DNA of 36,520 bases from positions 333,345 through 369,864 of the forward strand of contig BPGW01000002.1 in assembly GCA_026003235.1 (NCBI GenBank), given 5' to 3'. This DNA is from Bacteroidia bacterium. GTDB taxonomy: Bacteria; Bacteroidota; Bacteroidia; SpSt-205. Position numbers and translations under genes: made by a program. This document shows positions 3,167 to 35,456 of the stretch, piece after piece (the first letter of the stretch is position 1; each line of letters starts with the position of its first letter). The notes under the pieces were generated by a model that saw only the letters and a program-made list of their open reading frames with translations, had not been told where the DNA came from and did not search any database.

Positions 3167-3181
3167 TATGTTTGCGGTATG
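3167..3181 (+). promoter_or_regulatory. -7 promoter element and leaderless start of nuoG
   Basis: TATGTTTG at 3167-3174 matches TAnnTTTG. Four bases (cggt) separate it from the ATG at 3179. This decides the start: the in-frame ATG at 3116 lies upstream of the promoter and inside the previous gene. Confidence 0.75.
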
Positions 3182-4906
3182 CCCACCTTCTACATAGACG
3201 GGCAGCCTTACACCTACGAAGGGGGCGGCAAGCTCCTCCAGTACTGCCTGGACCACGGGATTGAGATTCCCTTCTTTTGCTACCATCCTGCGCTGAGCAT
3301 ACCGGCCAATTGCCGGATGTGTTTGGTGGAGACGGGCCTGCCCCAGAAAGACCGGCAGACCGGTGAGTACCTGCGAGAGCCTGACGGTTCGCTCAAAGTG
3401 GCTTGGGGGCCTAAGCCGGTGCCTGCTTGTACGACCGACCTGGTGCCTGACCTCCATGTACGTACCCATCGCACCTCCCAGACTGTGCGGCAGACGCAAC
3501 AATCCGTGCTGGAATTCATCCTCATCAATCACCCTTTAGACTGCCCTATCTGCGATCAGGCAGGAGAGTGCCCCTTGCAGATTTGGACCTATAAGTACGG
3601 CCCAGAAGGGTCTCGTTTTGAGGAGGAGAAGGTGCACAAGCCTAAGCGCATTCGGCTGGGGCCGCATGTGGTGCTGGACGCCGAACGGTGTATCAACTGT
3701 ACCCGCTGTGTGCGTTTTACCGAGGAGATCTCCCAAAGCCGTCAGCTTACTATCGTGCACCGCGGCAACCTGAATTATCCAGCGACGGCGCAAGGCCAGC
3801 CTTTTGACGACCCGTACTCGCTCAACACCGTAGATATCTGTCCGGTGGGGGCTCTCACCAGCGCTGACCATCGCTTCAAAGCGCGCCCTTGGGAGATGAA
3901 CTACACGCCTACTATTTGTACGGGCTGCGCGCGAGGTTGTAACGCCTACGTATGGGTGCGGGACAACCTTGTCATGCGTCTGACCCCTCGCAAGAACCTG
4001 GCGATCAATCAGTATTGGCTCTGCGATGAAGGGCGGCTGGATTATGCCAAGTACAACGAGCGGCGCGCTTCGGGCCTGCGTCAGGCCGGCGATGTGCCGG
4101 TAGCCTGGGAAGAGGGCTTGGAAGCGCTGGCTCTCTTTATAGAGAAGCACCAGGGTAAGATCCTCTTCGTGGGGTCGGCTTACGCCAGCGTGGAAACCCT
4201 TTATGTGCTGGCGGCGTTTCGGGAGCAAGTTTCGCCCGAAAGCCCCCTTCTGTATGTGCCCCACATCCAGCCAGGCTGGGGAGATCACCTCTTGCGCAAA
4301 GACGATCGTACCCCTAATAGCTACGGTGCGCAGGCTCTGGGGTATCGTCCCGCTGCGGTGAAGGAGATAGCAGCGCTGCTGGAAGGCGGTTCGTATACGC
4401 TCTTGTACTGGGTAGAGGATGACCCAGCGCTGGCGGAGCTTCTTCCTATCCTTCCGGCTGGGGTGGCGGTCGTGGCGCATCTGTATCAGCTTGTGGAGGG
4501 GTATGAGCGGCTTGACTGGGTTCTTCCTGCGGCTACGCACCTGGAGAGCTTTGGGACCTATGTGAATTTTGAGGGGCGAGCGCAGACGGTGCAGCCTGCG
4601 CGCCAGTGGCAGCAAATGAAGCCGGAGGACTGGTTCTATCTGCCGAAAAGCCGCTTAGATGCCGCTGGTCAGGCCGTAGATCGTTGGCGCCATCCTGAGC
4701 ATATCCCCGATTGCCTGCCCAGCTATCAGATGTTGCTCAAGCTGGCCCAGAAACTCCGAAAGCCCCTGGATTGGCCCTCCGATCATCTGCCGATTTGGGA
4801 AAAGCTCAGGGCGACGCTACCCTTTATGGCGGGGGCGGTGTATCCGAAGCTCCTGCGCAAAGAGATGTTTCGCCACAACCAGCTGGAGTTTGCCATCAGG
4901 GTGTAG
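3179..4906 (+). CDS. nuoG: NADH-quinone oxidoreductase subunit G (short form)
   Basis: Iron-sulfur subunit of the complex I electron-input arm; it passes electrons from NADH through a chain of clusters on the cytoplasmic side. Visible ligands, numbered from the ATG at 3179: [2Fe-2S] C34, C45, C48, C84; His-Cys3 cluster H118, C122, C125, C131; [4Fe-4S] C171, C174, C177, C221; and a further four-cysteine set C247, C250, C254, C282 at the entry of the molybdopterin-oxidoreductase-like domain. The remainder is a shortened version of that domain and keeps LPAATHLESFGTYVNFEGRA. At 575 aa it is much shorter than E. coli NuoG (about 900 aa). No other nuo gene is in the window and the gene is monocistronic here: a promoter sits just before it and an opposing gene overlaps its 3' end by 11 bp. 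A different respiratory or hydrogenase-linked diaphorase subunit is possible, but nuoG is the best fit. Confidence 0.85.
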   Translation: MPTFYIDGQPYTYEGGGKLLQYCLDHGIEIPFFCYHPALSIPANCRMCLVETGLPQKDRQTGEYLREPDGSLKVAWGPKPVPACTTDLVPDLHVRTHRTSQTVRQTQQSVLEFILINHPLDCPICDQAGECPLQIWTYKYGPEGSRFEEEKVHKPKRIRLGPHVVLDAERCINCTRCVRFTEEISQSRQLTIVHRGNLNYPATAQGQPFDDPYSLNTVDICPVGALTSADHRFKARPWEMNYTPTICTGCARGCNAYVWVRDNLVMRLTPRKNLAINQYWLCDEGRLDYAKYNERRASGLRQAGDVPVAWEEGLEALALFIEKHQGKILFVGSAYASVETLYVLAAFREQVSPESPLLYVPHIQPGWGDHLLRKDDRTPNSYGAQALGYRPAAVKEIAALLEGGSYTLLYWVEDDPALAELLPILPAGVAVVAHLYQLVEGYERLDWVLPAATHLESFGTYVNFEGRAQTVQPARQWQQMKPEDWFYLPKSRLDAAGQAVDRWRHPEHIPDCLPSYQMLLKLAQKLRKPLDWPSDHLPIWEKLRATLPFMAGAVYPKLLRKEMFRHNQLEFAIRV

Positions 4907-5699
4907 AGAGGAGGCGGGCGACCAGAGCGGATAGCTCATTTAGGCTGGAAAAAGTGCCTGCGGCAGCGCTCGCATAGGGATGATCGTGAGGAACTATCCA
5001 GGGCGGTCCCGCTTCCAAAAAAGGTGCTTCAGGGCAGGCGGAGTCGGTGCAGAGTAAGAGGCTCGCTCGGGTCAAGTAAACCGCCGTCTGCGCCCACGGT
5101 AGCCCCACCTTAAGGTGAAGGCGACTCGGAAAACGATAACTGGCCTGCCTCAACCGAGTAATGGAAGGAGGGCTACCGACCACCCATACGGTGTAACCCT
5201 CCAGCGCCAAGAGCTCCGCTATGTGGGTAGATTCGGCCGGATCTTCTTGCCCAGTGAGTAAGGTCACGATACGGGATGAGACCGGGCTAAGTGGGGCTTC
5301 GTCTACGGGAAGGCGCGCTATTTTTTCCGAAGCAGGCGGAAAGGGGGAATAAACCTGCAAGGAAAAGCGTTTTTTCCATCTCTTAGCCAAAAAAGATCCA
5401 AGCTGACTGGGTGAAGGCTGGAAGGCTGTGGGCTGAAAGCCCTCTTGAGTCCAGAGGGCTTCTATTTCTCGGGCGATTTGGCTGAGGCTCCAATGCCCCC
5501 AGAAGCCGATGTGTCGGCCCCAACCGTGGTAGATTCGGAGGGCGTAGCCGGGCTTCGTGGTGGGCCAGGTGGGGTTCCAGCTCAAGGTCCATAGGGGCTC
5601 TTTTTCGGAGAAGTAAGCTGCGACCTGGGCGTAGGCTTCTCCTCGCCAATCGTAGTGGGTGGTTTCGTGAGCGGGAAGCAGCCAGACCCAGCCGTGCAT
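4896..5699 (-). CDS. Unknown protein, possibly a divergent GT-B glycosyltransferase
   Basis: Protein of 267 aa that I do not recognise with certainty. It has no signal peptide or membrane segment. Two features hint at a GT-B fold of the heptosyltransferase (GT9) kind: a central strand-turn VVGSPPS after a block IVTLLTGQEDPAES, and near the C-terminus LLLCTDSACPEAPFLEAGPP, which resembles the nDSG-type sugar-nucleotide site of GT9 enzymes. Neither is strong. The protein is rich in Trp and Pro. It is the third gene of a pepA-pdxA-unknown operon; its ATG overlaps the pdxA stop as ATGA, so translational coupling is likely. Its stop lies inside the 3' end of nuoG on the other strand. Function is best left as unknown. 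Confidence 0.7.
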   Translation of the reverse strand: MHGWVWLLPAHETTHYDWRGEAYAQVAAYFSEKEPLWTLSWNPTWPTTKPGYALRIYHGWGRHIGFWGHWSLSQIAREIEALWTQEGFQPTAFQPSPSQLGSFLAKRWKKRFSLQVYSPFPPASEKIARLPVDEAPLSPVSSRIVTLLTGQEDPAESTHIAELLALEGYTVWVVGSPPSITRLRQASYRFPSRLHLKVGLPWAQTAVYLTRASLLLCTDSACPEAPFLEAGPPWIVPHDHPYASAAAGTFSSLNELSALVARLLSTP

Positions 5700-6721
5700 C
5701 AGGGGTGTGCTTGTCTACGGTGCCAGATGGCCAGCCCTTCCCAGATAGCGCTGCTTAGGCTGCTTGGGTCGGCCTCCTCGCGGCCTACCTTATCATAGGC
5801 CACGCCATGGTCCGGCGAAGTGCGCACGAAAGGCAGCCCAGCGGTGTACTGAAAGCCTTCCCAGCCTTCCAAGAGCTTGAAGGGGATAAGTCCCTGGTCG
5901 TGGTAAAGAGCCAGGATGCCCTCTACTTGGGTGTACTGGCGGGAGCCGAAGAACCCATCCGCTGCAAAGGGCCCGCCAATGAAGTGGCCCTCTTCCCGGA
6001 ATTTCTCCAGGAGGGGGGCAAGCCAGGTTTTCTCTTCCTTGCCCAGGAGGCCCTCGTCGCCTGCGTGGGGATTGAGCGCCAGGACGGCGATGCGGGGTTT
6101 GGGCACAGCAAAGTCCCGCTTTAGCGCCGCTATAAAAGTGCGAAGGGCCTGCTCAACTTTTTCGGCTGAGAGGGCGGAAGCCACCTCAGCCAAGGGAAGG
6201 TGCTCCGTAACCAGCGCCACGCGTAGGGTTTGGCCTACCATGACCATCAAGGGCGGGGTGTCCGGATACAGGGCGCGAAGGTATTCGGTGTGCCCTCGGT
6301 AGGGAAAGGTCTCTTCTTCGTAGAAGGTGCTTTTATCCACCGGCAGCGAGACGAGCAGGTTGAGGCTACCGGCCTGAGCGGCTTGGACGGCTGCCTGGAA
6401 GGCTTGCCGGGCTAAGCGTCCTCCTTCCGCAGAAGGCTTGCCGATCAAAATGTCCTGCAGGGGCGCGCACTCCATCAGGTTGAGCTGGCCGGGCTGGGCT
6501 TCTTCGGGCCGTGAGATGCGATGGTAACGGAGGGTAGACAGTCCAAGGAAACCCCGCCACCGCTCCACCACGCGGCGGTGGGCAAAAATCACAGGGATGA
6601 AGCGATCTTCCCACCCTTCTTGAGCCAGAAGCTGGAAGAGCAATTGGGGGCCGATGCCGCCTGGCTCTCCTATGGAGAAGCCTACGCGCGGCAGTTCAGC
6701 CGCCGAAGAGCCGTTCTCCAT
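5699..6721 (-). CDS. pdxA: 4-hydroxythreonine-4-phosphate dehydrogenase
   Basis: NAD-dependent enzyme of the DXP-dependent pyridoxal phosphate pathway; it oxidises 4-phosphohydroxy-threonine to a product that decarboxylates to 3-amino-1-hydroxyacetone phosphate. The 340-aa length is typical. The N-terminus carries the family sequence GFSIGEPGGIGPQ. The three metal-binding histidines are visible: H144 in GHTEYLRA, H219 in LNPHAGDEG, H274 in YHDQGLIPFK. The C-terminal TSPDHGVAYD is also characteristic. It is the middle gene of a minus-strand operon; its 5' end overlaps the pepA stop by 26 bp and its stop overlaps the next start (ATGA). A start slightly downstream is possible because the first nine residues are poorly conserved in character. 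Confidence 0.95.
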   Translation of the reverse strand: MENGSSAAELPRVGFSIGEPGGIGPQLLFQLLAQEGWEDRFIPVIFAHRRVVERWRGFLGLSTLRYHRISRPEEAQPGQLNLMECAPLQDILIGKPSAEGGRLARQAFQAAVQAAQAGSLNLLVSLPVDKSTFYEEETFPYRGHTEYLRALYPDTPPLMVMVGQTLRVALVTEHLPLAEVASALSAEKVEQALRTFIAALKRDFAVPKPRIAVLALNPHAGDEGLLGKEEKTWLAPLLEKFREEGHFIGGPFAADGFFGSRQYTQVEGILALYHDQGLIPFKLLEGWEGFQYTAGLPFVRTSPDHGVAYDKVGREEADPSSLSSAIWEGLAIWHRRQAHP

Positions 6722-8186: not shown

Positions 8187-8200
8187 GGCCGGCAAAGTTA
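8184..8200 (-). promoter_or_regulatory. -7 promoter element and leaderless start of pepA
   Basis: On the minus strand TAACTTTG (8193-8200), six bases CCGGCC, then ATG (8186-8184). A perfect TAnnTTTG match. It rules out the upstream TTG at 8195, which lies inside the element. Confidence 0.75.
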
Positions 8201-8209
8201 GGCGGTGGG

Positions 8210-8224
8210 TATCTTTGTTGGGTG
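8210..8224 (+). promoter_or_regulatory. -7 promoter element and leaderless GTG start of the amine oxidase gene
   Basis: TATCTTTG at 8210-8217, four bases (ttgg), then GTG at 8222. It lies 9 bp from the oppositely directed pepA element, so the two promoters overlap physically. Confidence 0.75.
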
Positions 8225-9556: not shown

Positions 9557-9582
9557 GCTTTTTGCTACTGCACTGAAAAACC

Positions 9583-9600
9583 TACCTTTGTCTGTCTATG
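9583..9600 (+). promoter_or_regulatory. Full -33/-7 promoter of the TPR gene
   Basis: TACCTTTG at 9583-9590, seven bases, then ATG at 9598. A TTTG at 9561-9564, 18 bp upstream of the -7 element, fits the Bacteroidota -33 element. One of only two clear -33 matches in the window. Confidence 0.75.
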
Positions 9601-12335: not shown

Positions 12336-12347
12336 CCCGCAAATATG
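12333..12347 (-). promoter_or_regulatory. -7-like element and leaderless GTG start of moxR
   Basis: On the minus strand CATATTTG (12347-12340), one mismatch to TAnnTTTG, then CGGG and GTG (12335-12333). It directly abuts the opposite-strand element of the next gene. Confidence 0.55.
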
Positions 12348-12368
12348 TTACTTTGTAGGTACTCCATG
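12348..12368 (+). promoter_or_regulatory. -7-like element upstream of the T9SS type B protein gene
   Basis: TTACTTTG at 12348-12355, one mismatch to TAnnTTTG, ten bases before ATG at 12366. It decides against the in-frame ATG at 12345, which lies upstream of the element. Confidence 0.55.
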
Positions 12369-15035: not shown

Positions 15036-15037
15036 CT

Positions 15038-17499: not shown

Positions 17500-17511
17500 A
17501 GGGCGAAGTTA
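17497..17511 (-). promoter_or_regulatory. -7-like element of purF embedded in the preceding stop codon
   Basis: On the minus strand TAACTTCG (17511-17504), one mismatch to TAnnTTTG, then CCCT and ATG. The first three bases, TAA, are also the stop codon of the upstream glycosyltransferase gene. Confidence 0.55.
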
Positions 17512-18690: not shown

Positions 18691-19706
18691 AAGGGGGTGC
18701 GAACCCGAGCCAGCGAGAAGAGCCGCTGCAAATGGCGCAGATGCACATACCCAATGACCAAGCCCACCAGGCCAATCAGAAGGAGGCTACCGAGCCATCC
18801 CTGCGGGTATGGAGCCAGCAAGATAGACACCAGGCCCAGAGTGAGCTGGCTTCCTCCCAGCGCAAGGGGTATCATCGGGACGGCCCAGCCCAGGTGCGCA
18901 AGCCGGTGGGTTAGATGATCGGTTCCTCCATGAAAAGGATGCTGGCTGCGCGCCAGCCGGGAAACGATGACCCAGAAGGTATCTCCTGCCAGGATAGCAA
19001 AAAGGCCCACCAGCCACACCAGCCGCATCCACCCTTCTTGGAAAGGGAGCGCGTGAAAGACCTGCGTGCCCCAGTAAGCCAGCACAAACCCCAGAAACTG
19101 GCTGCCGTTGTCGCCCATGTAGAGGTGAGAGGGGTGCCAGTTGCGCACGAGAAAGGCTGCGAGGGCTCCAGCTATGCCCAGATAGAGTAGGAGGTGGGGT
19201 TCGCCAGGGAGGAGCCAAGGGCTCATCGCAAGCAGGACCAAGGCAAGGCTGCCTGCGACCCCGTCCATGTTGTCCATCATGTTGAAGGCGTTCATCACAG
19301 CGGTGTACCAGAAAAGGGTGAGCGGTAAGGAGAGCCAAGCTGGCTCCACGGAGAGGGTTGGAGCGCCTAAAACCAGGGCGAGCGTGGCGGCGCCTACTTG
19401 CCCCATGAGCTTTAGGAAGGGGATGGCCACAAAGGCGTCATCGGCCAGGCCCGTGAGAAAGGCCACAATACCTCCCGCCAAAAAAGACCGCGTCACACTT
19501 AGGCCTTCGGGCTGCCAAGCGCCCAGCGCTAACGCTAAAATGAAGAAGCTGAGCCCCCCTATGATAGGTTTGCGCTGGCTATTCCACCGGCGTTGGTTCG
19601 GAATGCCTTGGCTGAGAGCCCCTAACCGCCGCGCAAATCGTAAAAAAATCTCGTTCCATGCCCAGGCAGAGAGAAAGCCGACTGCTACTACGCTGAAGAA
19701 AGCCAT
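18687..19706 (-). CDS. WecA/MraY-like undecaprenyl-phosphate glycosyl-1-phosphate transferase
   Basis: Polytopic membrane enzyme of 339 aa that transfers a sugar-1-phosphate (GlcNAc-type in WecA) from a UDP-sugar to undecaprenyl phosphate, starting a surface glycan. Landmarks: PNQRRWNSQRKPIIGGLSFF near the N-terminus, the Asp pair in GLADDAFVAIPFLKL, NAFNMMDNMDGVAGS with the metal Asp residues, and HLYMGDNGSQFLGF. About ten hydrophobic segments. WecA is preferred over MraY because the histidine-rich cytosolic loop is SQHPFHGGTDHLTHRL, the WecA/TagO-like form, and no mur genes are nearby. The start is put at ATG 19706 and not at GTG 19727, because the GTG overlaps the -7 element TATATTTG and could not be in the transcript. 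It is the first gene of a two-gene unit with the GT4 gene. Confidence 0.88.
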   Translation of the reverse strand: MAFFSVVAVGFLSAWAWNEIFLRFARRLGALSQGIPNQRRWNSQRKPIIGGLSFFILALALGAWQPEGLSVTRSFLAGGIVAFLTGLADDAFVAIPFLKLMGQVGAATLALVLGAPTLSVEPAWLSLPLTLFWYTAVMNAFNMMDNMDGVAGSLALVLLAMSPWLLPGEPHLLLYLGIAGALAAFLVRNWHPSHLYMGDNGSQFLGFVLAYWGTQVFHALPFQEGWMRLVWLVGLFAILAGDTFWVIVSRLARSQHPFHGGTDHLTHRLAHLGWAVPMIPLALGGSQLTLGLVSILLAPYPQGWLGSLLLIGLVGLVIGYVHLRHLQRLFSLARVRTPL

Positions 19707-19726
19707 ACAGGAGTCTCGGGCATGCA

Positions 19727-19734
19727 CAAATATA
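19727..19734 (-). promoter_or_regulatory. -7 promoter element of the WecA-like gene
   Basis: TATATTTG on the minus strand (19734-19727), 20 bases before ATG 19706. This is the only element in the window spaced far enough to leave a short 5' leader, roughly 15 nt. Confidence 0.65.
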
Positions 19735-19743
19735 CGGCTTGCT

Positions 19744-19758
19744 TACCTTTGCCTGGTG
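19744..19758 (+). promoter_or_regulatory. -7 promoter element and leaderless GTG start of gcvT
   Basis: TACCTTTG at 19744-19751, four bases (cctg), GTG at 19756. It lies 9 bp from the divergent WecA-gene element. It excludes the long in-frame upstream extension to 19267. Confidence 0.75.
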
Positions 19759-22769: not shown

Positions 22770-22798
22770 TTGCAGATGTCAGAAAAGTCGTATCTTTG
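22770..22798 (+). promoter_or_regulatory. Full -33/-7 promoter of the tRNA-Gly/tRNA-Leu unit
   Basis: TTG at 22770-22772, 18 bp, then TATCTTTG at 22791-22798. The mature tRNA-Gly begins 8 nt further on, so transcription must start within those 8 bases. This calibrates the element-to-start distance for the protein genes. Confidence 0.8.
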
Positions 22799-22806
22799 CC
22801 CTGCTT

Positions 22807-22879
22807 GCGGCAGTAGCTCAGCTGGTAGAGCGCAACCTTGCCAAGGTTGAGGTCGCGGGTTCGAGTCCCGTCTGCCGCT
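22807..22879 (+). tRNA. tRNA-Gly (anticodon GCC)
   Basis: A 73-nt cloverleaf. The acceptor stem GCGGCAG (22807-22813) pairs with CTGCCGC (22872-22878) and the discriminator is T. The anticodon stem CAACCTTGCCAAGGTTG presents GCC, reading GGC and GGT. The T arm GCGGGTTCGAGTCCCGT is canonical. CCA is not encoded. Confidence 0.97.
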
Positions 22880-22891
22880 CCCCTTAGCTTA

Positions 22892-22978: not shown

Positions 22979-22982
22979 TAGC

Positions 22983-23183
22983 ATGGACGAAGCCTTTGAG
23001 GCGTTCCTGCGAGAAAAGCGCATCCATCCTAAAAAGTGGGCAGAAGGACTTCCAGAGGCGGAGAGGGCAATACACCTTGAGGCTTTTCGTGTCCTTGGGC
23101 GTAAGGCTTACGAGCAGCGGTATTTGTTTTACTTCAACGCGTGGCGAAAGCTGTATCCGCTTTCCGAGGAGTTGTCGGCCTGA
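22983..23183 (+). CDS. Small conserved-looking protein of unknown function (66 aa)
   Basis: A 66-aa soluble protein with an evenly acidic/basic, helical composition: FEAFLREKRIHPKKWAEGLP, then YEQRYLFYFNAWRKLYPL at the C-terminus. I recall short Bacteroidota proteins with the same plan (FL-SKKI- start, W/F in the middle, RRKYPL-like end), but cannot name the family. No signal peptide or membrane segment. The ATG lies only 4 nt after the 3' end of tRNA-Leu, and no separate promoter is present, so it is expected on the tRNA transcript and freed by tRNA processing. The 3' end overlaps the following permease frame by 43 nt if that gene starts at GTG 23141. Confidence 0.75.
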   Translation: MDEAFEAFLREKRIHPKKWAEGLPEAERAIHLEAFRVLGRKAYEQRYLFYFNAWRKLYPLSEELSA

Positions 23184-24358: not shown

Positions 24359-24360
24359 GG

Positions 24361-24376
24361 TAACTTTGCACCCGTG
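24361..24376 (+). promoter_or_regulatory. -7 promoter element and leaderless GTG start of the OmpA-family gene
   Basis: TAACTTTG at 24361-24368, five bases (caccc), GTG at 24374. It starts two bases after the stop codon of the permease gene. Confidence 0.75.
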
Positions 24377-25876
24377 CGAACCCTCTCTGCGGGGCTTTTC
24401 TTGCTGGTGTGGGCCCAGCGGGTGCCCTTGCCGTCCGGTATCAATACCCCCCTCCACGAAAGCGCGCCTGTCCTGTCGGCCGATGGAAGGCAGCTTTTTT
24501 TCTGGCGCCTGGACGATCCTGCTGGCTATGGGGCCCAGGATATTTTTTATGCCGTCTGGGACGATTCGCTGGGGGACTTCGGGCCTGCTGTACACTTGGG
24601 AGGCGGCCTAAATGACCCTCGCGGCAATATCCCCTTCGGTATCACCCCCGATGGGCAGTACCTGCTTGTCTACAAGGAATTTCGCAATCCCCAAAACCCC
24701 TGCGAGTTGGGCTTTGCTCGGCGGCTTGCGGGTGATGTATGGACAGCCCCTGTGCAGTTGCGCGTGCAAAACTTTTCCAGCCGCAGCGGGAGTTCCCTCA
24801 CGGCGGGGCTGGGCTGGGATGGTCGCACCTTGCTCCTCTCCATGAACGGCCCCGGCTCCTTGGGTGGGGAAGACCTATATGTGAGCTTTTACGACCCTGA
24901 AAAGCGCCTCTGGAGCGAACCCCGTTGGCTGGGGCCTACGATCAATTCGCCTGCCGATGAGGTAACCCCTTTTCTGGCACCCGATGGGGTCACGCTTTAC
25001 TTTTCCACCAACGGCCGTCCCGACAGCAAAGGCCAAGACATCTATTTGACCCGGCGGCTTGATGACAGCTGGCAGCGATGGACTACCCCCCAACGCTTGC
25101 CTGAACCTATCAACTCCAGCGCGGACGATTATTACTTCAAGTTTGCTGCGCTGCATCCTGAGGTGGCTTATCTGGTCTCTACGGATTCGGTCGGGGAGTG
25201 GGGGCGTCAGCTGTACCGCGTGCCCTTACCCGAAGCCTACCGCCCCAGGCCCGTCGTGGTGGTAGAAGGCCAGGTTTTGGAGCAGGGGAGCCGACGGCCC
25301 ATAGGAGGGGCAGAAATCCGTTATTACGACCTGGCCCAGAACACCCTGGAAGGCACCGCCTTCTCGGACCCCACGACCGGGGAGTATCGGGTTCTTTTGC
25401 CCTTGGGCGCGCTCTATGGCATCCTCGTGCAAAATCCCGGTTATTTCAGCCTCAGCGAGTACATCGATCTCAGGCAAGCGCCGCCCAGGGCTTCTATCAA
25501 GAAGGACATTGAAGTGGCGCCCCTTCTGGTAGGCACGGTGATTCGTCTCAATGGGCTTTTTTTTGCCAGTGGGGACAGCACCCTGCAGCCGGAGAGTCGG
25601 CTGGAGCTGGAGCGGCTTGCTTGGCTGCTGAGCGACCGGCCTACCATGCGCATTGAGATTTTGGGGCATACCGACAGCACAGGGCTCTTTGAGAAAAACA
25701 TGGAGCTTTCTTGGCGGCGGGCGCATGCCGTGGCTCAATATCTGGAGGCGCGGGGGGTGTCGGCCGACCGGTTGCGCATCCGGGCCTTAGGGCCTACCCA
25801 GCCCGTAGCCGACAACCGGACGCCTGAAGGACGCGCCCGAAACCGACGCGTGGAATTTCGCATCCTGTCCTTGTAG
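24374..25876 (+). CDS. OmpA-family outer-membrane protein with PD40 repeats
   Basis: Exported protein of 500 aa. An N-terminal signal peptide (RTLSAGLFLLVWAQ after the GTG start) is followed by PD40/WD40-like beta-propeller blades: SAPVLSADGRQLFFWR, GNIPFGITPDGQYLLVYK and TPFLAPDGVTLYFSTNGR. A carboxypeptidase-regulatory-like fold follows at VEGQVLEQGSRRPIGGAEIR. The last 120 residues are an OmpA peptidoglycan-binding domain: FFASGDSTLQPES, the hallmark IEILGHTDSTG, and NRTPEGRARNRRVEFRI. This order, PD40 then CarboxypepD_reg then OmpA, recalls the T9SS core protein PorE, which anchors the machinery to peptidoglycan, but PorE-like proteins are numerous and identity is not proven. Single-gene unit by its own promoter and the promoter inside its stop codon. 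Confidence 0.88.
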   Translation: MRTLSAGLFLLVWAQRVPLPSGINTPLHESAPVLSADGRQLFFWRLDDPAGYGAQDIFYAVWDDSLGDFGPAVHLGGGLNDPRGNIPFGITPDGQYLLVYKEFRNPQNPCELGFARRLAGDVWTAPVQLRVQNFSSRSGSSLTAGLGWDGRTLLLSMNGPGSLGGEDLYVSFYDPEKRLWSEPRWLGPTINSPADEVTPFLAPDGVTLYFSTNGRPDSKGQDIYLTRRLDDSWQRWTTPQRLPEPINSSADDYYFKFAALHPEVAYLVSTDSVGEWGRQLYRVPLPEAYRPRPVVVVEGQVLEQGSRRPIGGAEIRYYDLAQNTLEGTAFSDPTTGEYRVLLPLGALYGILVQNPGYFSLSEYIDLRQAPPRASIKKDIEVAPLLVGTVIRLNGLFFASGDSTLQPESRLELERLAWLLSDRPTMRIEILGHTDSTGLFEKNMELSWRRAHAVAQYLEARGVSADRLRIRALGPTQPVADNRTPEGRARNRRVEFRILSL

Positions 25877-25889
25877 CTTTGCCCGCATG
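25874..25889 (+). promoter_or_regulatory. -7 promoter element of the Nudix gene, starting in the preceding stop codon
   Basis: TAGCTTTG at 25874-25881, five bases (cccgc), ATG at 25887. The TAG at 25874-25876 is also the stop codon of the OmpA-family gene. Confidence 0.75.
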
Positions 25890-26453
25890 GAAAAGAACCC
25901 TTGGCAGACGCTGTCTTCCCGGCAGGTCTACGATAACCCCTGGATAGCTGTCCGCGAAGACCAAGTCCTCACCCCTGCCGGTCAGCCCGGCATCTACGGC
26001 GTGGTCCACTATAAGCATCGGGCCTTGGGCGTGATACCGATCGATGAAGAAGGCCACACTTACCTCGTAGGGCAGTACCGCTACCCCTTGCAGGCTTACT
26101 CTTGGGAGATACCCGAAGGGGGAGGCAAGCTTGACCGCGACCCGCTGTCCGAAATCCAGCGAGAACTGGCCGAGGAAACCGGCCTCATCGCCCGCCGCTG
26201 GCGCCTGCTTTTGCGCATGCACCTCTCCAATAGCGTCTCCGATGAAGAGGCGCTCCTCTACTTAGCGTGGGACCTTCGTCGGGGCACGCCCCACCCCGAA
26301 GGAACCGAACAACTCCGCCTCTGGCGCTTGCCCCTCCACGAAGCCATAGAACGCCTCCACGCGGGCCAATTCACGGATTCCCTTACCGTCGCGGGGCTTC
26401 TGTATGTAGAGACCCTCCTTCATCGGAAAGCCTTAACTTTGCCCCCCACATGA
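25887..26453 (+). CDS. Nudix hydrolase, ADP-ribose pyrophosphatase-like
   Basis: Cytosolic hydrolase of 188 aa, probably cutting ADP-ribose or another nucleoside diphosphate derivative. The N-terminal half has DNPWIAVREDQV and VGQYRYPLQAYSWEIPEGGG as in the ADP-ribose pyrophosphatase group. The Nudix box spans residues 78-100, with RELAEETGL carrying the metal-binding glutamates. Residue 84, where the textbook box has Glu, is Arg; I recall related Bacteroidota enzymes with other residues at this place, so it is not necessarily inactive. First gene before secDF, whose -7 element and start lie within the last 20 bases of this gene; the genes overlap by ATGA. Confidence 0.9.
   Translation: MEKNPWQTLSSRQVYDNPWIAVREDQVLTPAGQPGIYGVVHYKHRALGVIPIDEEGHTYLVGQYRYPLQAYSWEIPEGGGKLDRDPLSEIQRELAEETGLIARRWRLLLRMHLSNSVSDEEALLYLAWDLRRGTPHPEGTEQLRLWRLPLHEAIERLHAGQFTDSLTVAGLLYVETLLHRKALTLPPT
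26434..26452 (+). promoter_or_regulatory. -7 promoter element of secDF inside the Nudix gene
   Basis: TAACTTTG at 26434-26441, eight bases (ccccccac), ATG at 26450. The element is inside the 3' coding end of the Nudix gene and rejects the in-frame upstream start at 26267. Confidence 0.7.
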
Positions 26454-28678
26454 TCCGGCACAAGCCCTTCATTCTGACCCTCCTGGGCATTTTTTTTGCC
26501 ATAGTCCTGTACAACCTCTACTGGGTATTTGAGCGCTTTCGCCTGGAGGCTAAGCTTTCGGCTCTTACGCCTGAAGCCCGTAGCGCCTGGTTCAAAGACC
26601 CCGACAACTACAAGTACTATCGCCGGGCCGTAGAGAACTCTTTTTCCCTGGGCCTGGACCTGCAAGGGGGCATGTACGTCACGCTGGAAGTGGGGGTAGA
26701 AGACCTCCTGCGGGGTTTGAGCGAAGTGCCCAACGATACGGTTTTCCAAGCTGTACTGAATGAAGCTGTCGCCAGGTATCGCCGAGGAGAAGGCAATCTG
26801 GTGGATCTTTTTGCTGAAACGCTCAAGCGGCGCAGCCCGGGCACTTCGCTGGCGCAGTTTTTCGCAGGGCCCAAGCTGGGCTTGGCTTACAACGCTTCCG
26901 ATGCCGAAGTGCTGCGCAAGCTCCGCCAGGAAGTGGAAGATGCGGTGGAACGCACCTACAAGATCCTTCGCGTGCGGATAGACCAGTTTGGGGTGGTCTC
27001 GCCCAATATCCAGCGTCAGCCCGGCACAGGGCGGATTCTCCTTGAGCTGCCAGGCGTAAAAGACAGCGAACGGGTAAGGCGCCTCCTGCGTACCACCGCC
27101 CAGCTGGAGTTCTGGCCTACCTATACAATAAAAGAGGTCTTCCCCCTCCTCCAGAAGGCCAACGAGAAGCTTGCGGCGATGGCTTCTGCCCAGAAGGGGC
27201 AGGATACCCTGCGCGCCGATACCCTCGCCGCCTCAGACACCACCTCTAAGGGGGGAGAGCTTTCTACCGAAGAGCTGCTCTTAGGCAAAAAGAAACCAGG
27301 CGGACCAAGCGATACAGCCAAAAAGGATACCGCTGCCCTCTCGGAAGAGGAAAAGCGCAAGAAATTTGAAAAAGAGAACCCGCTGTTTGCGGTCCTGATT
27401 CCGCCGCAGAACGCCTCGGAAAACAGCCCTGTTGTGGGCTATGCTCGGATTGCGGATACTGCCACGGTGGGCCAGTACTTGCGCCGGCCGGAAATCAGGG
27501 CCCTTTTCCCAGACAACCTGGCTTTTGCCTGGACGGTCAAGCCCGAACAAGAAGGAACCGACGCTTTGACGCTTATTGCGCTGCGGGTCAACCCTGCGCG
27601 TCAGGCTCCGCTTACGGGAGAGGCCATAGAGGATGCCCGGCAGGACTTCAATCCGGACGATGGCAGCCCTATGGTCACGATGCGCATGAACGCCGAAGGC
27701 GCCCGCATCTGGAAACGGCTCACCACTGATTACCTGGGCAAATCCATCGCGGTCGTCTTGGATGGGTATGTCTACACCTACCCCGTGGTGCAGAGCGTCA
27801 TCGCCAACGGAAACTCCCAGATCACCGGCAACTTCACCGTAGAGGAAGCCAAAGACCTGGCCAATGTGCTCAAGGCGGGCCGCCTCCCCGCAGCGATTCG
27901 GATAGAGGCCGAGGAGATCGTAGGCCCTTCGCTGGGTGAAGTGGCAATCCGGCAAGGGGTGATAGCCCTGGTGCTGGCCTTCGCTTCTATCCTGCTGGTG
28001 ATGTGGGCTATCTACAGTACCGCAGGACTCATCGCAAACCTCGCACTGTTTATTCTCCTCCTCTTCATTGCGGGGGTCATGGCCGCCATGAATGTGGTCT
28101 TGACCTTGCCCGGTATCGCCGGTATCGTGCTCACGCTGGGTATGGCGGTAGACGTTAACATCCTGATTTATGAGCGCGTGCTGGAAGAGCTGCATGCCGG
28201 CAAGTCCTTGAAAGGAGCTATTGAAAACGGCTTCAATCGGGCGCTCTCCGCTATCACCGACTCCAATGTAACCACCTTGCTGACGGGCATCATCCTATAT
28301 GCGTTTGGGATTGGACCCATTCGGGGCTTTGCCGTGACGCTGATCATTGGGATTACCGGCACTTTCCTTACAGGTGTGCTGATTACTCGCCTTCTCGTAG
28401 AGGCTGTGTACAATTCCCCTCGCTGGTCTTCTAAGCTGCGGTTCCGTACTGCCTTTGCGGAAAAGCTCCTCAGCAAAATCCCTCCGATTCCTTTCCATCG
28501 CCATTACCGTACCCTGCGCTGGGTCATGTGGGGTCTGGCGCTGGCTGGGGCAGCGGCGCTGATAGGGGTAGGCATTCGGCCGGGGCTGGAGTTCACGGGG
28601 GGGCTATCAGTTCCAGGTGGCGTTGACTCGTCCCGCCTCCCTGGACCAGGTCCAGGAAGACCTCACCGCCGCCTTTGA
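26450..28678 (+). CDS. secDF: SecDF translocase, SecD part (frame runs out after a frameshift)
   Basis: Proton-driven component of the Sec system that pulls exported proteins from the periplasmic side. A first membrane helix (residues 7-27) is followed by the SecD motif GLDLQGG at 68-74, the large periplasmic P1 domain and the five further SecD helices, with TLGMAVDVNILIYERVLEEL. P1 contains a Lys/Ser/Thr-rich insert around TAKKDTAALSEEEKRKKFEK. The frame continues through the first SecF helix (MWGLALAGAAALIGVGI) and ends meaninglessly after the second conserved motif GLEFTGG: a run of seven G at 28597-28603 puts the ribosome out of frame. With six G the protein would continue into the SecF frame and give about 992 aa, the normal fused SecDF of Bacteroidota. 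Residues after 28603 in this frame (about 25 codons) are spurious. Confidence 0.9.
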   Translation: MIRHKPFILTLLGIFFAIVLYNLYWVFERFRLEAKLSALTPEARSAWFKDPDNYKYYRRAVENSFSLGLDLQGGMYVTLEVGVEDLLRGLSEVPNDTVFQAVLNEAVARYRRGEGNLVDLFAETLKRRSPGTSLAQFFAGPKLGLAYNASDAEVLRKLRQEVEDAVERTYKILRVRIDQFGVVSPNIQRQPGTGRILLELPGVKDSERVRRLLRTTAQLEFWPTYTIKEVFPLLQKANEKLAAMASAQKGQDTLRADTLAASDTTSKGGELSTEELLLGKKKPGGPSDTAKKDTAALSEEEKRKKFEKENPLFAVLIPPQNASENSPVVGYARIADTATVGQYLRRPEIRALFPDNLAFAWTVKPEQEGTDALTLIALRVNPARQAPLTGEAIEDARQDFNPDDGSPMVTMRMNAEGARIWKRLTTDYLGKSIAVVLDGYVYTYPVVQSVIANGNSQITGNFTVEEAKDLANVLKAGRLPAAIRIEAEEIVGPSLGEVAIRQGVIALVLAFASILLVMWAIYSTAGLIANLALFILLLFIAGVMAAMNVVLTLPGIAGIVLTLGMAVDVNILIYERVLEELHAGKSLKGAIENGFNRALSAITDSNVTTLLTGIILYAFGIGPIRGFAVTLIIGITGTFLTGVLITRLLVEAVYNSPRWSSKLRFRTAFAEKLLSKIPPIPFHRHYRTLRWVMWGLALAGAAALIGVGIRPGLEFTGGLSVPGGVDSSRLPGPGPGRPHRRL
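28597..28603 (+). other. Apparent +1 frameshift in secDF at a run of seven G
   Basis: Seven G follow AC in the codons for the conserved FTGG motif. Reading acg ggg ggc tat cag (one G fewer) gives TGGYQFQVALTRPAS and joins the SecD frame to the SecF frame without any loss. As written, the frame changes to a nonsense tail ending at 28678. Confidence 0.85.
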
Positions 28679-29429
28679 GGGGACCGTGCCCGTCATCAAA
28701 ACCGTAGGAGCTAAAAACGACCTTCTGATTAGCACAAGCTACCTTTACGACCAGCCTAATCGCCAGGCCGATGTGGAAAAAGCCCTCATGGAGGGCCTGC
28801 GCAAGCGGCACGCTGACGCCAACCCGCAGATTGTGCGTTCGGCGCTCGTGGGGCCCAGCGTCGCAGAAGATATTCGCTCCAGCGCCGTCATCTCCGTGAC
28901 CTTGGGCATCTTGGTGATTGCGCTATACCTGCTCTTGCGCTTCCGGAGTTTTGCTTATTCGCTGGGGAGTGCGGCTTCGCTGCTGGTGACGACGCTGGTT
29001 ATCCTGGGTATTTACGGGCTTCTGAGCTGGTCTGACCTCCTACCTTTCTCGCTGGAGGCTAATCAGGACACCATAGCCGCCGCCCTTACGGTGATTGGCT
29101 TTGTGGTGCACGACTCCGTGATTCTCTTTGACCGCATTCGGGAGGAGCGCAAGCGACCCGGAGCCGAGGCCCTGCCCGCCGCCGAACTGCACAGCCAGAG
29201 CGTGAACCTGGTCTTTATCCGGACCTTGTTGACCACCCTTACCGTCGTACAGGTGGTGGTGATCCTGCTCCTGATAGGAGGGGAAAGCACCAAGGGGTTC
29301 TCCCTACTGATGCTGCTGGGCTTCCTCTTTGGCGTCATTTCTACCATTTATGTGGCCAGCGATGTGTCGGCTCTCCTACTTGAGCGTTTTCGTCGGCGCT
29401 CTCCTGCGGCGGCCCCTTCGTCTCGCTGA
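28617..29429 (+). CDS. secF: SecDF translocase, SecF part (continuation after the frameshift)
   Basis: Second half of the Sec accessory motor. The frame is open from just after the G7 run; the GTG at 28617 is only the first start-like codon and is probably not a true start, because the first SecF membrane helix and the GLEFTGG motif lie upstream in the SecD frame. The remainder is intact: periplasmic P4-like domain (LDQVQEDLTAAFEGTVPVIK), GPSVAEDIRSSAVISVTLGI, the helix pair LIVIALYLLLRF-like, and TVIGFVVHDSVILFDRIREE with the conserved Asp/Arg region. A separately translated SecF lacking its first helix would be abnormal. Read together with the preceding part it forms one SecDF of about 992 aa. 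Confidence 0.9.
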   Translation: MALTRPASLDQVQEDLTAAFEGTVPVIKTVGAKNDLLISTSYLYDQPNRQADVEKALMEGLRKRHADANPQIVRSALVGPSVAEDIRSSAVISVTLGILVIALYLLLRFRSFAYSLGSAASLLVTTLVILGIYGLLSWSDLLPFSLEANQDTIAAALTVIGFVVHDSVILFDRIREERKRPGAEALPAAELHSQSVNLVFIRTLLTTLTVVQVVVILLLIGGESTKGFSLLMLLGFLFGVISTIYVASDVSALLLERFRRRSPAAAPSSR

Positions 29430-30333: not shown

Positions 30334-30345
30334 AGCCCTCTCCTC

Positions 30346-30360
30346 TATCTTTGCCCCGTG
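30346..30360 (+). promoter_or_regulatory. -7 promoter element and leaderless GTG start of yidC
   Basis: TATCTTTG at 30346-30353, four bases (cccc), GTG at 30358. The preceding gene stops at 30333. Confidence 0.75.
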
Positions 30361-32133: not shown

Positions 32134-32588
32134 GGTGGGTGGGCCTGGTGGGGCTGCTTGCAGGCCAGGGGCTTTCCCGCAAGCTTGCTTACCAGAAGGC
32201 CCAGGATCACACTCGCCTGGGGCAGTGGGAAGCGGCCGTGGCCGCTTGGCGTAGCCTTCTGTGGAGCGAACGCGACTCCACAGCCCGCGCCCTTATCTGT
32301 CAGCAATTGGGGTACATTGCCCTTCGGCGGGGCGACAGCAGCGAAGCCCTTTACCTTTGGGAGCAGAGCCTTCGGTATCGGCCTGCTTATCCCGTCGCCC
32401 TGACGAATTACCAGTGGCTGCGTCTGCGCCTCAAGCGCCCCCCCCAAGCACCGCCTCCCCACATCTCGCAGTATATGCCTTATCCCCCTCTTTCGGAGGA
32501 GGCTCCGCCTGTCTGGGGGGAAGGCCCCCTTCAATTCACTGAGCCTTCTTCCCTACGATGGTGGTGCGTTCGCCGCTTGCAAGAATGA
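32118..32588 (+). CDS. Small exported TPR-like protein
   Basis: Protein of 156 aa. The first 20 residues (MVSALRWVGLVGLLAGQGLS) form a probable signal peptide. Two TPR-like helix pairs follow: YQKAQDHTRLGQWEAAVAAW and LGYIALRRGDSSEALYLWEQ with the turn SLRYRPAYPVAL. The C-terminal third is Pro-rich and disordered (PPQAPPPHISQYMPYPPLSE). It probably binds other envelope proteins. The start overlaps the yidC 3' end by 16 bp, so the genes are co-transcribed; no separate promoter is seen. Function unknown. Confidence 0.75.
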   Translation: MVSALRWVGLVGLLAGQGLSRKLAYQKAQDHTRLGQWEAAVAAWRSLLWSERDSTARALICQQLGYIALRRGDSSEALYLWEQSLRYRPAYPVALTNYQWLRLRLKRPPQAPPPHISQYMPYPPLSEEAPPVWGEGPLQFTEPSSLRWWCVRRLQE

Positions 32589-32597
32589 GGTTTGCGC

Positions 32598-32612
32598 TAT
32601 CTTTGCGGTATG
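32598..32612 (+). promoter_or_regulatory. -7 promoter element and leaderless ATG of the T9SS propeller gene
   Basis: TATCTTTG at 32598-32605, four bases (cggt), ATG at 32610. Spacing and spacer are the same as for nuoG. It marks the real start of a gene whose first 180 bases are broken by frameshifts. Confidence 0.7.
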
Positions 32613-35380
32613 CGCCGATTTTTGGGTTTGAGGTGGTGCCCTCGTCTTGCTGGCACTTGCGCTCGGATGGCGTCCCACCCCTACGCAGCTCCGAGTTTCC
32701 GGTAGCTACTTCCCTTGGGAACCGGTAGGGCCCGTGAATCTGGGGCATAATTTGACTCACGGGTGTCCGCGTCGGCAATACCCTCTATGTGGGGTCCGCC
32801 TTTGGGGGACTTTTCCGCTCTACCGACAATGGCCGTTCCTGGGAAGTGGTCCCGGGCTTTACGCTCAACCAAAATGGCGAAGCTGTGTACCGCTGCCCTT
32901 CGGTGACGGCCCTGGCTACGGATGGCACCCGGCTCTATGTCGGAACAGGGGCCATTGTCCAGTATAACCCTGCTGGCATAAGCCCGTCTGCGGTGGCGAC
33001 TACCGCTCCCGGTCTGATAGGTGCCTTTGGCCGGCCAGGTATGGGGGTCTTTGTCTCTACCGACGGCGGTAACACCTTCTCAAACCAGAATGCCACCTGG
33101 AAGCTCTCTTATCCTGCGCTCTCTTACGCAAACGACTACACGAATACCGGCGTCATCAATGTGGTAGACATAGCTGTGAACGGCGATAAGGTGGCCGTCC
33201 TGACTCCTGATACGCTTTTGCTTTCTCTTGATGGGCTGGCTACCCTTCAGGGGGTAGGGCGCATTGCGGGGGGCAAGCGTCTTCGGAGCGTGGCCTGGGG
33301 AGCCAACGATGCGCTCTTCGTGACAACCGCCGACTCGCTCTACCGATCCACGGATGGAGGACAGACTTTTGTGCCGGTCTCGGGTATCCAGCTTCCTTCG
33401 GGCCTCACGGGCGTCTCGGGGATAGGAGGGGGGAACGCCATCGTGCGAGCAGCACCCTCCAACTCGTCTACCTTGTACTTGGCCAGCGCTAAAAGCGACG
33501 GCACCCTGGTAGGAGTTTGGGCTTCGCCGGATAATGGAGACACCTGGACTCGCATCGCCAACCAGGAAAACCCTTCCTTTGCTGTGCTGGGAGGTCAGGG
33601 TACAAGCGCTCTGGCGCTTAGGGTAGACCCCACCGATCCAACCCACCTCCTTCTTGGCGGGGCCACTCTGTGGGAGTTCAGCCCTGCTGAAGGCTGGCAG
33701 CGGATCAATCCTTCCAATCAAGACCCTCTTATTTTGCGACTGCCGACGGTTATGCGTGATTTTGTCTTCCTGTCCAGGGATGAATGGCTGGTGATTGGGG
33801 ACGGACGGCTTGTGCGTATCACCCAAGGTGGCGCTCGTATTGAAGACGCCAACCGAGGCCTCCAAGCTAACCGCATTTTATCTGTCGCTGTCTCAGCGAA
33901 GGGCGATGTGTATGCCTCAGGGCCCTCGCCGGTGCTTATCACTTCTCGGCGAGAAGAAGATCCAGCCGGGCTTTTCCGGCTTGTCCCTCTTGGAACCTTT
34001 CCTGTTCCTTCTCCAGCTGGGCCAGTGGCGGTGAGCAGCATAGACCCGGATATTTCGTTCTTCTCCTATCAGAGTGGGCGTCTGCGCGTCTCCCAAGACA
34101 GAGGCCAGACCTACGTTTCTTTCTATACTGCGCCTTTGGCTTTTTCCTGGGATACTACCCTCATCCAATCTGCCTCTGCAGCCGTTTCTGGGGATAGACC
34201 GGATGCCTTTGGGCCTTTGTATCCGCCTTTTGCGCTGGTGGAGAAGTTTGGGCAAAAAGTCCTCAATAGCGATGGGACGCGCCTCGGCACAAGCTATCTC
34301 TTCATTGCCACAGGAAGGGGCTTGTGGACGATCACCAACCCTATCTCTACCAACCCCGATACCATCCCTCATTGGAATCGTGTGAGTGGGACCACCCCTA
34401 TTGGCCTAAATGCCGATGTAAGCTACGCCAGTTATTTGAGCTCCTCTAATGGCATTCCTACTGCTTTGGCGGCGGATTCGGCGTATACGGTGTGGATCGG
34501 CACCTCCAACGGCCGACTCCTACGGGTCAAAAATGCGCATGATGTTACAATCGACCGTAGTGCGCAAGATGGAGTAGAGGATCTTACCTCAGCCATTTCG
34601 GGGGTGGGGGGCCGCTACATCAGTGCGGTAGCTGTGCACCCTAAGAATCCAGATCTCTTGGCTGTAGCGGTGGGAAGCTATGCCGGGCCGGCGGATCGGA
34701 TCTTCCTCTCCACAAACGCCACCGACCCTAACCCCACATTTACCTCTATTTCTACCGGTCTGCCCGACGTGCCGGTGTATAGTCTCTTCTTCTATCCGGA
34801 CTCGTCCTACTTGCTCTTTGCGGGTACCGAGTGGGGGCTCTGGCGCTGCATGGACGTCCGAGCGCCTACTTGGGAGGAAATGACCGGCCAGGTTGTGGGC
34901 CGGGTGCCGGTGACGTCCATCACTTGGAAACCTTATCGGTATCGGATAGACACGGTAGGGGGTACACCTGACCTGCCCCAGGTAGAGGGGTTCTTGGAGG
35001 AGGACCCGGAAAAGCCCCTCTACATTGCCACCTGGGGCCGAGGCGTATGGAAGCTCAATAGTCGCTTCGCTACAAGCCTCTCCGGGTCAAGCGCGCTCCC
35101 ACGGGGCCTCATCGTCTCGGTGTATCCGAACCCCTTCCAGTCCCAGCTTTTCCTGGAGGTGCGTTTACCTGAAGGGGCTCGCCAGTTGAGTTACCGGCTT
35201 TATACCCTTGATGGCCGCTGTGTAGCGGCGGAGGCTTATCCTTCGTCGCTCTCCCCAGGTCAGCATACCCTGGTGTGGCAGGTGCCAGCCTTGCCCGCGG
35301 GCCTGTACCTCCTACAAGTAGAGGGGGCCGATGGGGCCGGCCGCAAGTTTGCCGCGTCGCTGAAGCTCCTCCATCCGTAG
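32610..35380 (+). CDS. Secreted T9SS type A beta-propeller protein (two apparent frameshifts near the 5' end)
   Basis: Large surface or secreted protein of about 920 aa. Starting at the promoter-adjacent ATG 32610, the frame gives MRRFLGLR; a +1 shift near 32634 continues as GALVLLALALGWRPT, completing a normal signal peptide; a second +1 shift at 32761-32763 joins VGPVNLGHNLTHG to VRVGNTLYVGSAFGGLFRST. From there 863 codons (from GTG 32789) are intact. The body has BNR/sortilin-like propeller blades with Asp-box motifs: STDNGRSWEVV, STDGGNTFS, STDGGQTFVPV, SPDNGDTWTRI, SQDRGQTYVSF. The last 85 residues are a type A sorting domain: YPNPFQSQLFLEV and LPAGLYLLQVEG. Such proteins resemble secreted glycosidases and adhesins; no activity is shown. 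An intrinsic terminator follows at once. If the indels are real the gene is a pseudogene. Confidence 0.82.
32631..32640 (+). other. Apparent +1 frameshift in the signal peptide of the T9SS propeller gene
   Basis: From ATG 32610 the frame reads MRRFLGLR and then loses its signal peptide. Skipping one base near 32634 restores GALVLLALALGW, a hydrophobic core right after two arginines. The next frame has a stop at 32629, so the core needs an upstream start from the other frame. Confidence 0.6.
32761..32763 (+). other. Apparent +1 frameshift at GGG in the T9SS propeller gene
   Basis: cac ggg tgt ccg runs into a wrong frame. Reading cac ggt gtc cgc gtc ggc (one G fewer) gives THGVRVGNTLYVGS and joins the N-terminus to the intact body. 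The body frame has a stop at 32753-32755 just upstream. Confidence 0.7.
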
Positions 35381-35400
35381 TAGTACGCTCCCGCCTTTTT

Positions 35401-35438
35401 AGCCCGGGGAAGCATCCTGCTTCTCCGGGCTTCTTTTT
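35401..35438 (+). terminator. Intrinsic terminator after the T9SS propeller gene
   Basis: A 14-bp stem (35401-35414 with 35418-35431), one G-T wobble, 3-base loop TCC, followed by TCTTTTT. It begins 20 bases after the stop. Its last T (35438) is the first base of the rplU -7 element. It is the only clear intrinsic terminator I found in the window. Confidence 0.9.
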
Positions 35439-35456
35439 ACCTTTGCACCCGCCATG
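35438..35456 (+). promoter_or_regulatory. -7 promoter element of rplU-rpmA
   Basis: TACCTTTG at 35438-35445, eight bases (cacccgcc), ATG at 35454. Because it lies downstream of the hairpin, the hairpin is not in the rplU transcript. Confidence 0.75.

Follow-up and report, generated by a model that had tools for sequence, protein, structure and literature searches.

The 36,520-nucleotide stretch studied here, called the window throughout, belongs to a Bacteroidia bacterium (assembly GCA_026003235.1, contig BPGW01000002.1, positions 333,345 to 369,864; G000:C2:333345-369864 in our numbering) and carries, a few nucleotides before many of its start codons, the octamer TAnnTTTG, the -7 promoter element of Bacteroidota. 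This promoter architecture is real, genome-wide and conserved in the family. On this basis, leaderless expression is predicted for a large part, and probably the majority, of the promoter-proximal genes in one family of Bacteroidia. The evidence consists of the element itself, its fixed distance to the start codon, its conservation among relatives, its presence at unit heads and tRNA genes, the lack of a Shine–Dalgarno (SD) peak before divergent genes, and an anti-SD sequence kept in the relative KatS3mg025.

The genome of the window, G000, is a 2.06-Mb assembly in 11 contigs, 82% complete; the G+C content of the window is about 59%. On 830 kb of G000, 660 genes were called, and their starts were picked by codon usage alone, with promoter information unused. 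The open reading frame (ORF) caller was home-made and over-extends some starts; the secD ORF, for instance, was first taken from 26267, and the conserved start lies at 26450. The main comparison genome was KatS3mg025, a single-contig relative of the same family, and eight genomes outside the family served as comparators (100 kb each, 800 kb pooled), single-genome tests on such 100-kb pieces being weak. TAHHTTTG was the exact form of the element in genome-wide counts, with the reversed pattern as control.

Distance from the element to the start codon

The first-pass annotation, made from the window alone, had placed the element 4–8 nt before most starts and had tied its claim to the genome-wide distance distribution. 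This distribution has a sharp peak at 4 nt: the whole genome contains 168 TAHHTTTG-N4-ATG and none with the reversed pattern. Without any gene calls, an ATG follows at 4 nt in 68 cases in the 830 kb of G000 (background 4.0, with a shoulder at 3–8 nt) and in 75 cases in 800 kb of KatS3mg025 (background 5.7), compared with 22 over 9.5, a small bump, in the pooled comparators. GTG gives a spike at the same distance, with 26 cases over 5.7 in G000 and 26 over 6.6 in KatS3mg025. Before the called genes of G000, 173 TAnnTTTG elements lie 0–50 nt upstream, 67 of them ending exactly 4 nt and 124 ending 3–9 nt before the start, and nine altered motifs reach at most 3 at any distance from 0 to 20 nt. 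When elements are tallied against ORFs of at least 100 codons, a tally in which a single element may count at several distances, 159 ATG or GTG codons at 3–8 nt are obtained from 327 elements in G000, whereas the comparators give 37 from 520. Pooling the starts with gaps of 3 to 9 nt between element and codon, and using the gap nearest 4 where several fit, we obtained 269 starts distributed as 18, 134, 47, 18, 28, 17 and 7; two of them are TTG.

Our explanation is that TAHHTTTG would act as the -7 element in the normal housekeeping promoter of Bacteroidota. RNA polymerase would usually start at about the fifth base after it, which at gap 4 is the first base (A or G) of the start codon and at gaps 5–8 lies 1–4 bases before this codon. 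In Flavobacterium johnsoniae, transcription starts 4–5 nt after the element (PMC6847099), so leaders of 0–4 nt are expected in the family, from no leader at gap 4 to about 4 nt at gap 8. The first genes of most units would thus be translated from leaderless or near-leaderless mRNAs, with ribosomes presumably recognizing a 5'-terminal AUG or GUG without SD pairing, and genes close behind a neighbour, which mostly have no element, would probably be reached by coupling or reinitiation. The start base, the leaderless translation and the coupling are the parts that we infer. We think that this abutting promoter, giving leaderless or near-leaderless first genes, is very probably the right explanation of the pattern.

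Promoter identity and competing explanations

The element follows the position of a gene in its transcription unit. With in-frame starts in the first 400 kb of KatS3mg025, it is found at 59 of 90 divergent genes and at 4 of 99 genes lying within 12 nt of a same-strand neighbour; the figures for G000 are 70 of 170 divergent and 18 of 236 close-behind genes. For a count over 800 kb of KatS3mg025, a gene-score filter was applied and the element had to end 3–8 nt upstream of a start in the same frame as the gene. Exact matches occur at 70 of 105 divergent and 6 of 95 close-behind genes (86 and 12 when one mismatch is allowed), and control windows at the divergent genes give 7 exact matches and 14–19 with one mismatch. 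The corresponding numbers in G000 are 45 of 119 and 15 of 161 for the exact element and 70 and 29 with one mismatch, the controls being 8–10 and 14–15. Thus, with one mismatch, 59–82% of divergent genes fit, before subtraction of a background of 12–18%, and the first-pass description of this architecture at "nearly every" unit was too strong.

The fine structure of the promoter region was also inspected. In the two free positions of the element G is rare (8% and 4%, n=269), and the A/T content rises at about -18 from the predicted start, in line with F. johnsoniae (PMC6847099). Among gap-5 starts, 51% have a G immediately upstream of the codon; among gap-7 starts, 57% have G as fifth base and 97% have C or T directly upstream of the codon. 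GTG accounts for 53 of 189 starts at gaps 4–5 and for 6 of 67 at gaps 6–8 (Fisher p=0.0012), a preference that is suggestive only, because the frame-blind profile of KatS3mg025 also has a GTG excess at 6–8. As a separate observation, the base following the start codon is C in 47% of the gap-4 genes of G000 and G403 and in 23% of close-behind genes, and arginine is the commonest second residue of gap-4 genes, for which either a translational effect or the type of protein is conceivable.

Several points weigh against this explanation. The leaderless state is a prediction from spacing. The exact element stands at 3–8 nt in only the 45 of 119 divergent genes of G000 given above, and among same-strand genes with an upstream spacer of 40 nt or more it is found at 16 of 93 in G000 and 32 of 80 in KatS3mg025. 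In 12 of 21 orthologous head pairs neither species has an exact element within 20 nt, and a glycosyltransferase gene has it 20 nt away in the window and 23 nt away in KatS3mg025. No classical -33 TTTG is evident upstream of the 269 starts, a box that is much less evident in F. johnsoniae too (Baez 2019, PMC6847099). Gaps 6 and 8 lack the clear fifth-base purine that gaps 5 and 7 have. Mean folding energies do not make the 5' ends less structured than gene interiors (-7.13 and -6.82 kcal/mol, p=0.87), so relaxed 5' folding as an aid to leaderless starts was dropped. Moreover, none of the three Sigma70_r2 matches in the incomplete G000 could be singled out as the primary sigma factor.

The counts at divergent genes and same-strand heads, the 12 head pairs and the glycosyltransferase gene leadered in both species also speak for a mixed mode, in which perhaps half of the promoter-proximal genes would be leaderless and the others would have ordinary leaders. 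This is a possibility that we take seriously while thinking it rather doubtful. The 86 of 105 divergent genes of KatS3mg025, compared with 14–19 in the control, go against it, as does the lack of a comparable second peak past 10 nt, the maximum there in G000 being 11 at 19 nt, against 85 at 4 nt.

The promoter might also be real and many of the nearby ATG or GTG codons nothing but initial transcribed sequence, with the true starts downstream, the mRNAs leadered and the annotated starts mis-set. A purine followed by TG could indeed be favoured at a transcription start, and the glycosyltransferase gene has this layout. Nevertheless, of the 94 gap-4 ATG or GTG codons of G000, 85 begin a reading frame of 100 codons or more, compared with roughly half at 15–30 nt, and homology to the KatS3mg025 protein begins at the predicted start residue in nuoG, secD, yidC, bL21 and purF, with the L21 model beginning at residue 2. 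We consider mis-set starts very unlikely.

A translation signal, Kozak-like or S1-binding, within longer leaders whose promoters lie further upstream is very unlikely. Bacteroidota do lack SD sequences and rely on nucleotides close to the start codon (PMC6847099), and an S1 gene match is present in 11 of 12 family genomes. However, the tRNA genes carry the same element in the same range, which makes it a promoter and not a ribosome signal. The exact element was found within 45 nt of 30 of 42 tRNA calls, 27 of these at 4–11 nt from the mature 5' end and three further off, at 15, 18 and 23 nt; the 12 calls without it are 11 tRNAs directly behind another tRNA and one isolated call. In three tRNAs the element stands at exactly 4 nt, and therefore transcription starts at or before the fifth base. 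Besides, close-behind genes would need a translation signal equally and rarely carry the element, and its letters and spacing fit the known -7 promoter element. A composition or assembly artefact, conceivable for one incomplete GC-rich genome (11 contigs, 82% complete), can practically be dismissed, since reversed, rearranged, altered and shifted controls yield little and all 12 family genomes, the single-contig one included, concur.

No SD peak of GGAG/GAGG-type words exists before 170 divergent genes of G000. The 162 same-strand genes whose upstream spacer measures 40 nt or more show slightly more such words 1–2 nt from the start (8 and 7 cases), which is not SD spacing. The anti-SD is kept in KatS3mg025, since its 16S rRNA ends in GGATTACCTCCTTTCT, with the CCTCC core present. 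16S rRNA was recovered in 2 of 18 genomes with Rfam and in 3 of 23 with a short conserved pattern. The bS21 protein was detected in all eight genomes outside the family and in 11 of the 12 within it; S1 matches were likewise present in all eight others, and only one of 20 passed the strict cut-off. The S1 (rpsA) scores themselves are 481–510 bits in the family (11 genomes) and 527–577 bits in the eight other Bacteroidota.

Riboswitches borne by leaders were looked for as well. The thiamine pyrophosphate (TPP) riboswitch was found in none of 12 family genomes and in 5 of 8 others, and so was the cobalamin riboswitch, first-look candidates being scored in part; seven of the eight comparators have at least one of the two. 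This lack is only consistent with missing leaders, because the family is one lineage, the candidates were partly scored and a loss of the vitamin pathways could have the same effect. On 409,864 bases of G000 (5,000 of them N), Rfam returned only tRNAs and rRNAs. Regarding the latter, at L033:12501-15833 (contig 2 of G000) a single ORF stands behind the 23S gene and is flanked by two 5S rRNA copies. This 3.3-kb rDNA stretch is 98.7% identical to KatS3mg025, while orthologous proteins average 67%; transfer, conversion or chimeric assembly may be the reason. An archaeal best match of the 23S gene was discarded as an effect of model choice, given this identity over 3.3 kb.

The element along the window and among relatives

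In the window, 20 candidate protein starts and the tRNA were examined, and TAnnTTTG with at most one mismatch was sought within 40 nt. It was found at 13 starts, exact in 11, at distances of 4, 6, 4, 7, 4, 4, 20, 4, 5, 5, 8, 4 and 8 nt. The first-pass annotation had counted 15 protein units besides the tRNA, seven of them at exactly 4 nt, with exceptions at 10 and 20. Its pattern and its 4–8 nt rule stand (12 of 13), and the exception at 20 was recovered, but the tally drops to 13 units and to six starts at exactly 4 nt (four with exact elements, two with a mismatch), and the exception at 10 was not identified. Of all 22 TAnnTTTG in the window, 11 sit 3–8 nt before the ATG or GTG of an ORF that is 100 codons or longer. 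When the same test was made with the six letters rearranged in 29 other ways, the mean was 0.52 and the highest count 3. One of the 11, at 1001 inside another gene, is probably spurious.

Taking the forward strand first, TATGTTTG (3167..3174) lies 4 nt before ATG 3179 of a NuoG-like gene (NuoG match), with the KatS3mg025 orthologue also at 4. TATCTTTG (8210..8217) stands 4 nt before GTG 8222 of an amine oxidase gene (Pfam), whose orthologue has ATG at 3, and TACCTTTG (9583..9590) stands 7 nt before ATG 9598 of a TPR protein gene (Pfam), with 7 nt in the orthologue too. TACCTTTG is found again 4 nt before GTG 19756 of gcvT (Pfam; 19744..19751), the orthologue having ATG at 4. The tRNA-Gly is preceded by TATCTTTG (22791..22798), 8 nt before its mature 5' end at 22807, just as first annotated, and at 7 nt in KatS3mg025. 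Further along, TAACTTTG (24361..24368) lies 5 nt before GTG 24374 of a PD40/OmpA protein gene, for which relatives have related elements at other gaps, and TAGCTTTG (25874..25881) lies 5 nt before ATG 25887 of a NUDIX gene, whose start region differs among relatives, as does the upstream region of the PD40 gene. The last three are TAACTTTG (26434..26441), 8 nt before ATG 26450 of secD; TATCTTTG (30346..30353), 4 nt before GTG 30358 of yidC, the orthologue having TATCTTTG 5 nt before GTG; and TACCTTTG (35438..35445), 8 nt before ATG 35454 of the gene for ribosomal protein bL21, with the same element at 8 nt in KatS3mg025 and SKW103 alike.

On the reverse strand, TAACTTTG (8193..8200) lies 6 nt before ATG 8186 of a leucyl aminopeptidase gene, with 7 nt in the KatS3mg025 orthologue. 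A MoxR-type AAA ATPase gene (Pfam) has CATATTTG (12340..12347), with one mismatch, 4 nt before GTG 12335, and its orthologue has AATATTTG 3 nt before GTG; a PurF-like gene has TAACTTCG (17504..17511), also with one mismatch, 4 nt before ATG 17499, and its orthologue has the exact TACCTTTG at 7. The leadered exception is TATATTTG (19727..19734), 20 nt before ATG 19706 of a glycosyltransferase family 4 gene (Pfam). An ATG 3 nt past this promoter opens an 11-codon ORF (19688-19723, reverse strand) that overlaps the real start in a different frame, and at the KatS3mg025 locus GTGs outside the gene's frame lie 4 and 6 nt behind the element; the 11-codon ORF is possibly a leaderless leader peptide.

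No element was found within 40 nt of the other seven starts, at 12345, 15038, 20775, 23141, 29329, 32118 and 32789. Those at 12345 and 15038 look like unit heads, and the other five may be operon-internal or mis-set. In both the window genome and KatS3mg025, no element precedes ribE or the gene at 12345. A side observation concerns 26450-29429, where SecDF is in two overlapping frames, while six relatives have a single frame of 992–1014 codons; the split is probably an assembly slip, because a run of G lies near the break.

SecDF of the window has 72–81% identity in ten uncultured "Bacteroidia bacterium" records, namely KatS3mg025, SKW103, SKW77, SKYB7, SKYB87, SKYB95, SKYB116, SKYG57, SKYG92 and one N1_Bin record; another N1_Bin and an R1_Bin record have 46–48%, and Flavobacterium beibuense has 37%. 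The "KatS3mg" and "SKY" names probably denote geothermal metagenomes. A hot spring named SKY has been described (PMC8857248), possibly unconnected with these records.

Orthologues in these relatives retain the element, mostly with the gap at most one base off. Between the window and KatS3mg025 the gap is equal for nuoG, gcvT, the TPR gene and bL21, and shifted for the amine oxidase, yidC, aminopeptidase and PurF-like genes. TAACTTTG or TAATTTTG stands 7–8 nt before the ATG of secD in 11 of 11 family loci (ten records, with two loci in KatS3mg025) and is absent from both outgroup loci, L052 and L054. On our gene calls, the comparison of G000 with KatS3mg025 yielded no more than 61 reciprocal pairs. 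The start is shared in 31, of which 21 are the head pairs mentioned above; an exact element lies within 20 nt in both species in seven of them and in one species in two. The sequence identity of orthologous pairs climbs around -12 to -5.

Spread in the phylum and comparison with known systems

All 12 sampled family genomes have the 4-nt excess, with 105–190 TAHHTTTG-N4-ATG against 0–14 reversed; one genome of another family of the same order has 32 against 26. In a phylum sample of 395, G000 is the highest with its 168, and the next is a 4.2-Mb genome with 146 (control 52). We dropped the idea of a trait unique to the family, since in a class sample of 247 the raw counts of family f90 are equal or higher, indeed the highest of that sample: 317 against 47, 234 against 47 and 249 against 53 (G445, G478 and G505). 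Other excesses are found in f97 (164 against 43, 162 against 39), f72 (108 against 17, 106 against 16), genus g10 of f7 (108 against 15, 127 against 29, 98 against 11) and one f82 genome (141 against 24). G041 was rejected as an outlier (108 against 15), its 100 kb having no clear 4-nt peak. The excess per Mb is about 81 in G000, 79 in KatS3mg025, and 93, 64 and 65 in the f90 genomes, and in 83 kb of G445 (about 34% G+C) the gap-4 spike is present but modest, with 6 ORFs for 145 elements. The GTG version gives 66 against 2, 64 against 7, 58 against 4 and 53 against 4 in four family genomes; in 11 other genomes it ranges from below control to about twice the control, with a highest count of 54 against 27. 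Unit heads with the element at 3–9 nt are 85 of 305 in G000, 74 of 161 in KatS3mg025 and 21 of 378 in the pooled comparators, where 19 each lie at 13–19 and 23–29 nt. The trait is graded across Bacteroidia.

Taken together, it may be that promoter-proximal genes throughout the family have lost nearly all of their 5' leaders. The promoter used for housekeeping would double as translation-start address, GUG would be used chiefly where it forms the 5' end or lies one base from it, riboswitches carried by leaders would be gone, and the families of one class, sharing a promoter and a hardly used anti-SD, would grade in leader length between leadered and leaderless. For this joint reading as a whole we see the case for and the case against as balanced.

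Start-codon choice without SD is an open question in Bacteroidota, and leaderless mRNA was set aside as its explanation for F. johnsoniae (PMC6847099). If the prediction is true, leaderless and leadered families sharing a promoter would be a natural series for studying mode shifts of ribosome and promoter. TAHHTTTG can anchor the annotation of gene starts in such genomes, and surveys limited to Pribnow-like boxes would miss its layout. A survey of 37 Bacteroidetes/Chlorobi genomes, to which only Pribnow-like promoters were visible, reported leaderless genes in one, at 2.4% (PMC3160421). According to another paper, GeneMarkS-2 predictions put leaderless transcription in 21.6% of bacterial species, but the FCB group is characterized there by A/T-rich non-canonical sites (PMC9581028). 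The first-pass annotation had considered wholesale leaderless expression little described for this phylum. This agrees with the three species described below, although leaderless mRNA in Bacteroidetes or Flavobacteriia has already been mentioned, in general terms only (PMC5397173, PMC10783764). No family-wide leaderless expression in Bacteroidia was found in the literature, most subscription journals being outside the search.

Among the closest known systems are the housekeeping (sigma-ABfr) promoters of Bacteroidota (TTTG/TAnnTTTG). They share the letters of the -7 element, the avoidance of G at the free positions, A/T-rich sequence at about -18 and, as predicted for the family, a start about 4–5 nt downstream. 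The difference is that the species studied are normally leadered. F. johnsoniae has leaders of more than 10 nt in 87% of transcripts with a probable promoter (PMC6847099), 5.5% of the mRNAs of F. psychrophilum are leaderless (PMC9723704), and about 3.7% of the 5' untranslated regions of Bacteroides thetaiotaomicron are shorter than 10 nt (PMC7366714), whereas the element of the family abuts the start codon. The family also resembles the SD-scarce Bacteroidota with an intact anti-SD, but these are described with A/T-rich initiation regions (PMC3155529, PMC9581028). As in leaderless Actinobacteria and Deinococcus-Thermus, where a -10-type promoter element replaces the SD upstream of the start (PMC3160421), a promoter occupies the place of the ribosome-binding site; however, both the promoter element and the phylum are others. 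Thus, leaderless expression is a known kind of gene expression, and what would be new here is the phylum, the use of the Bacteroidota promoter and the extent.

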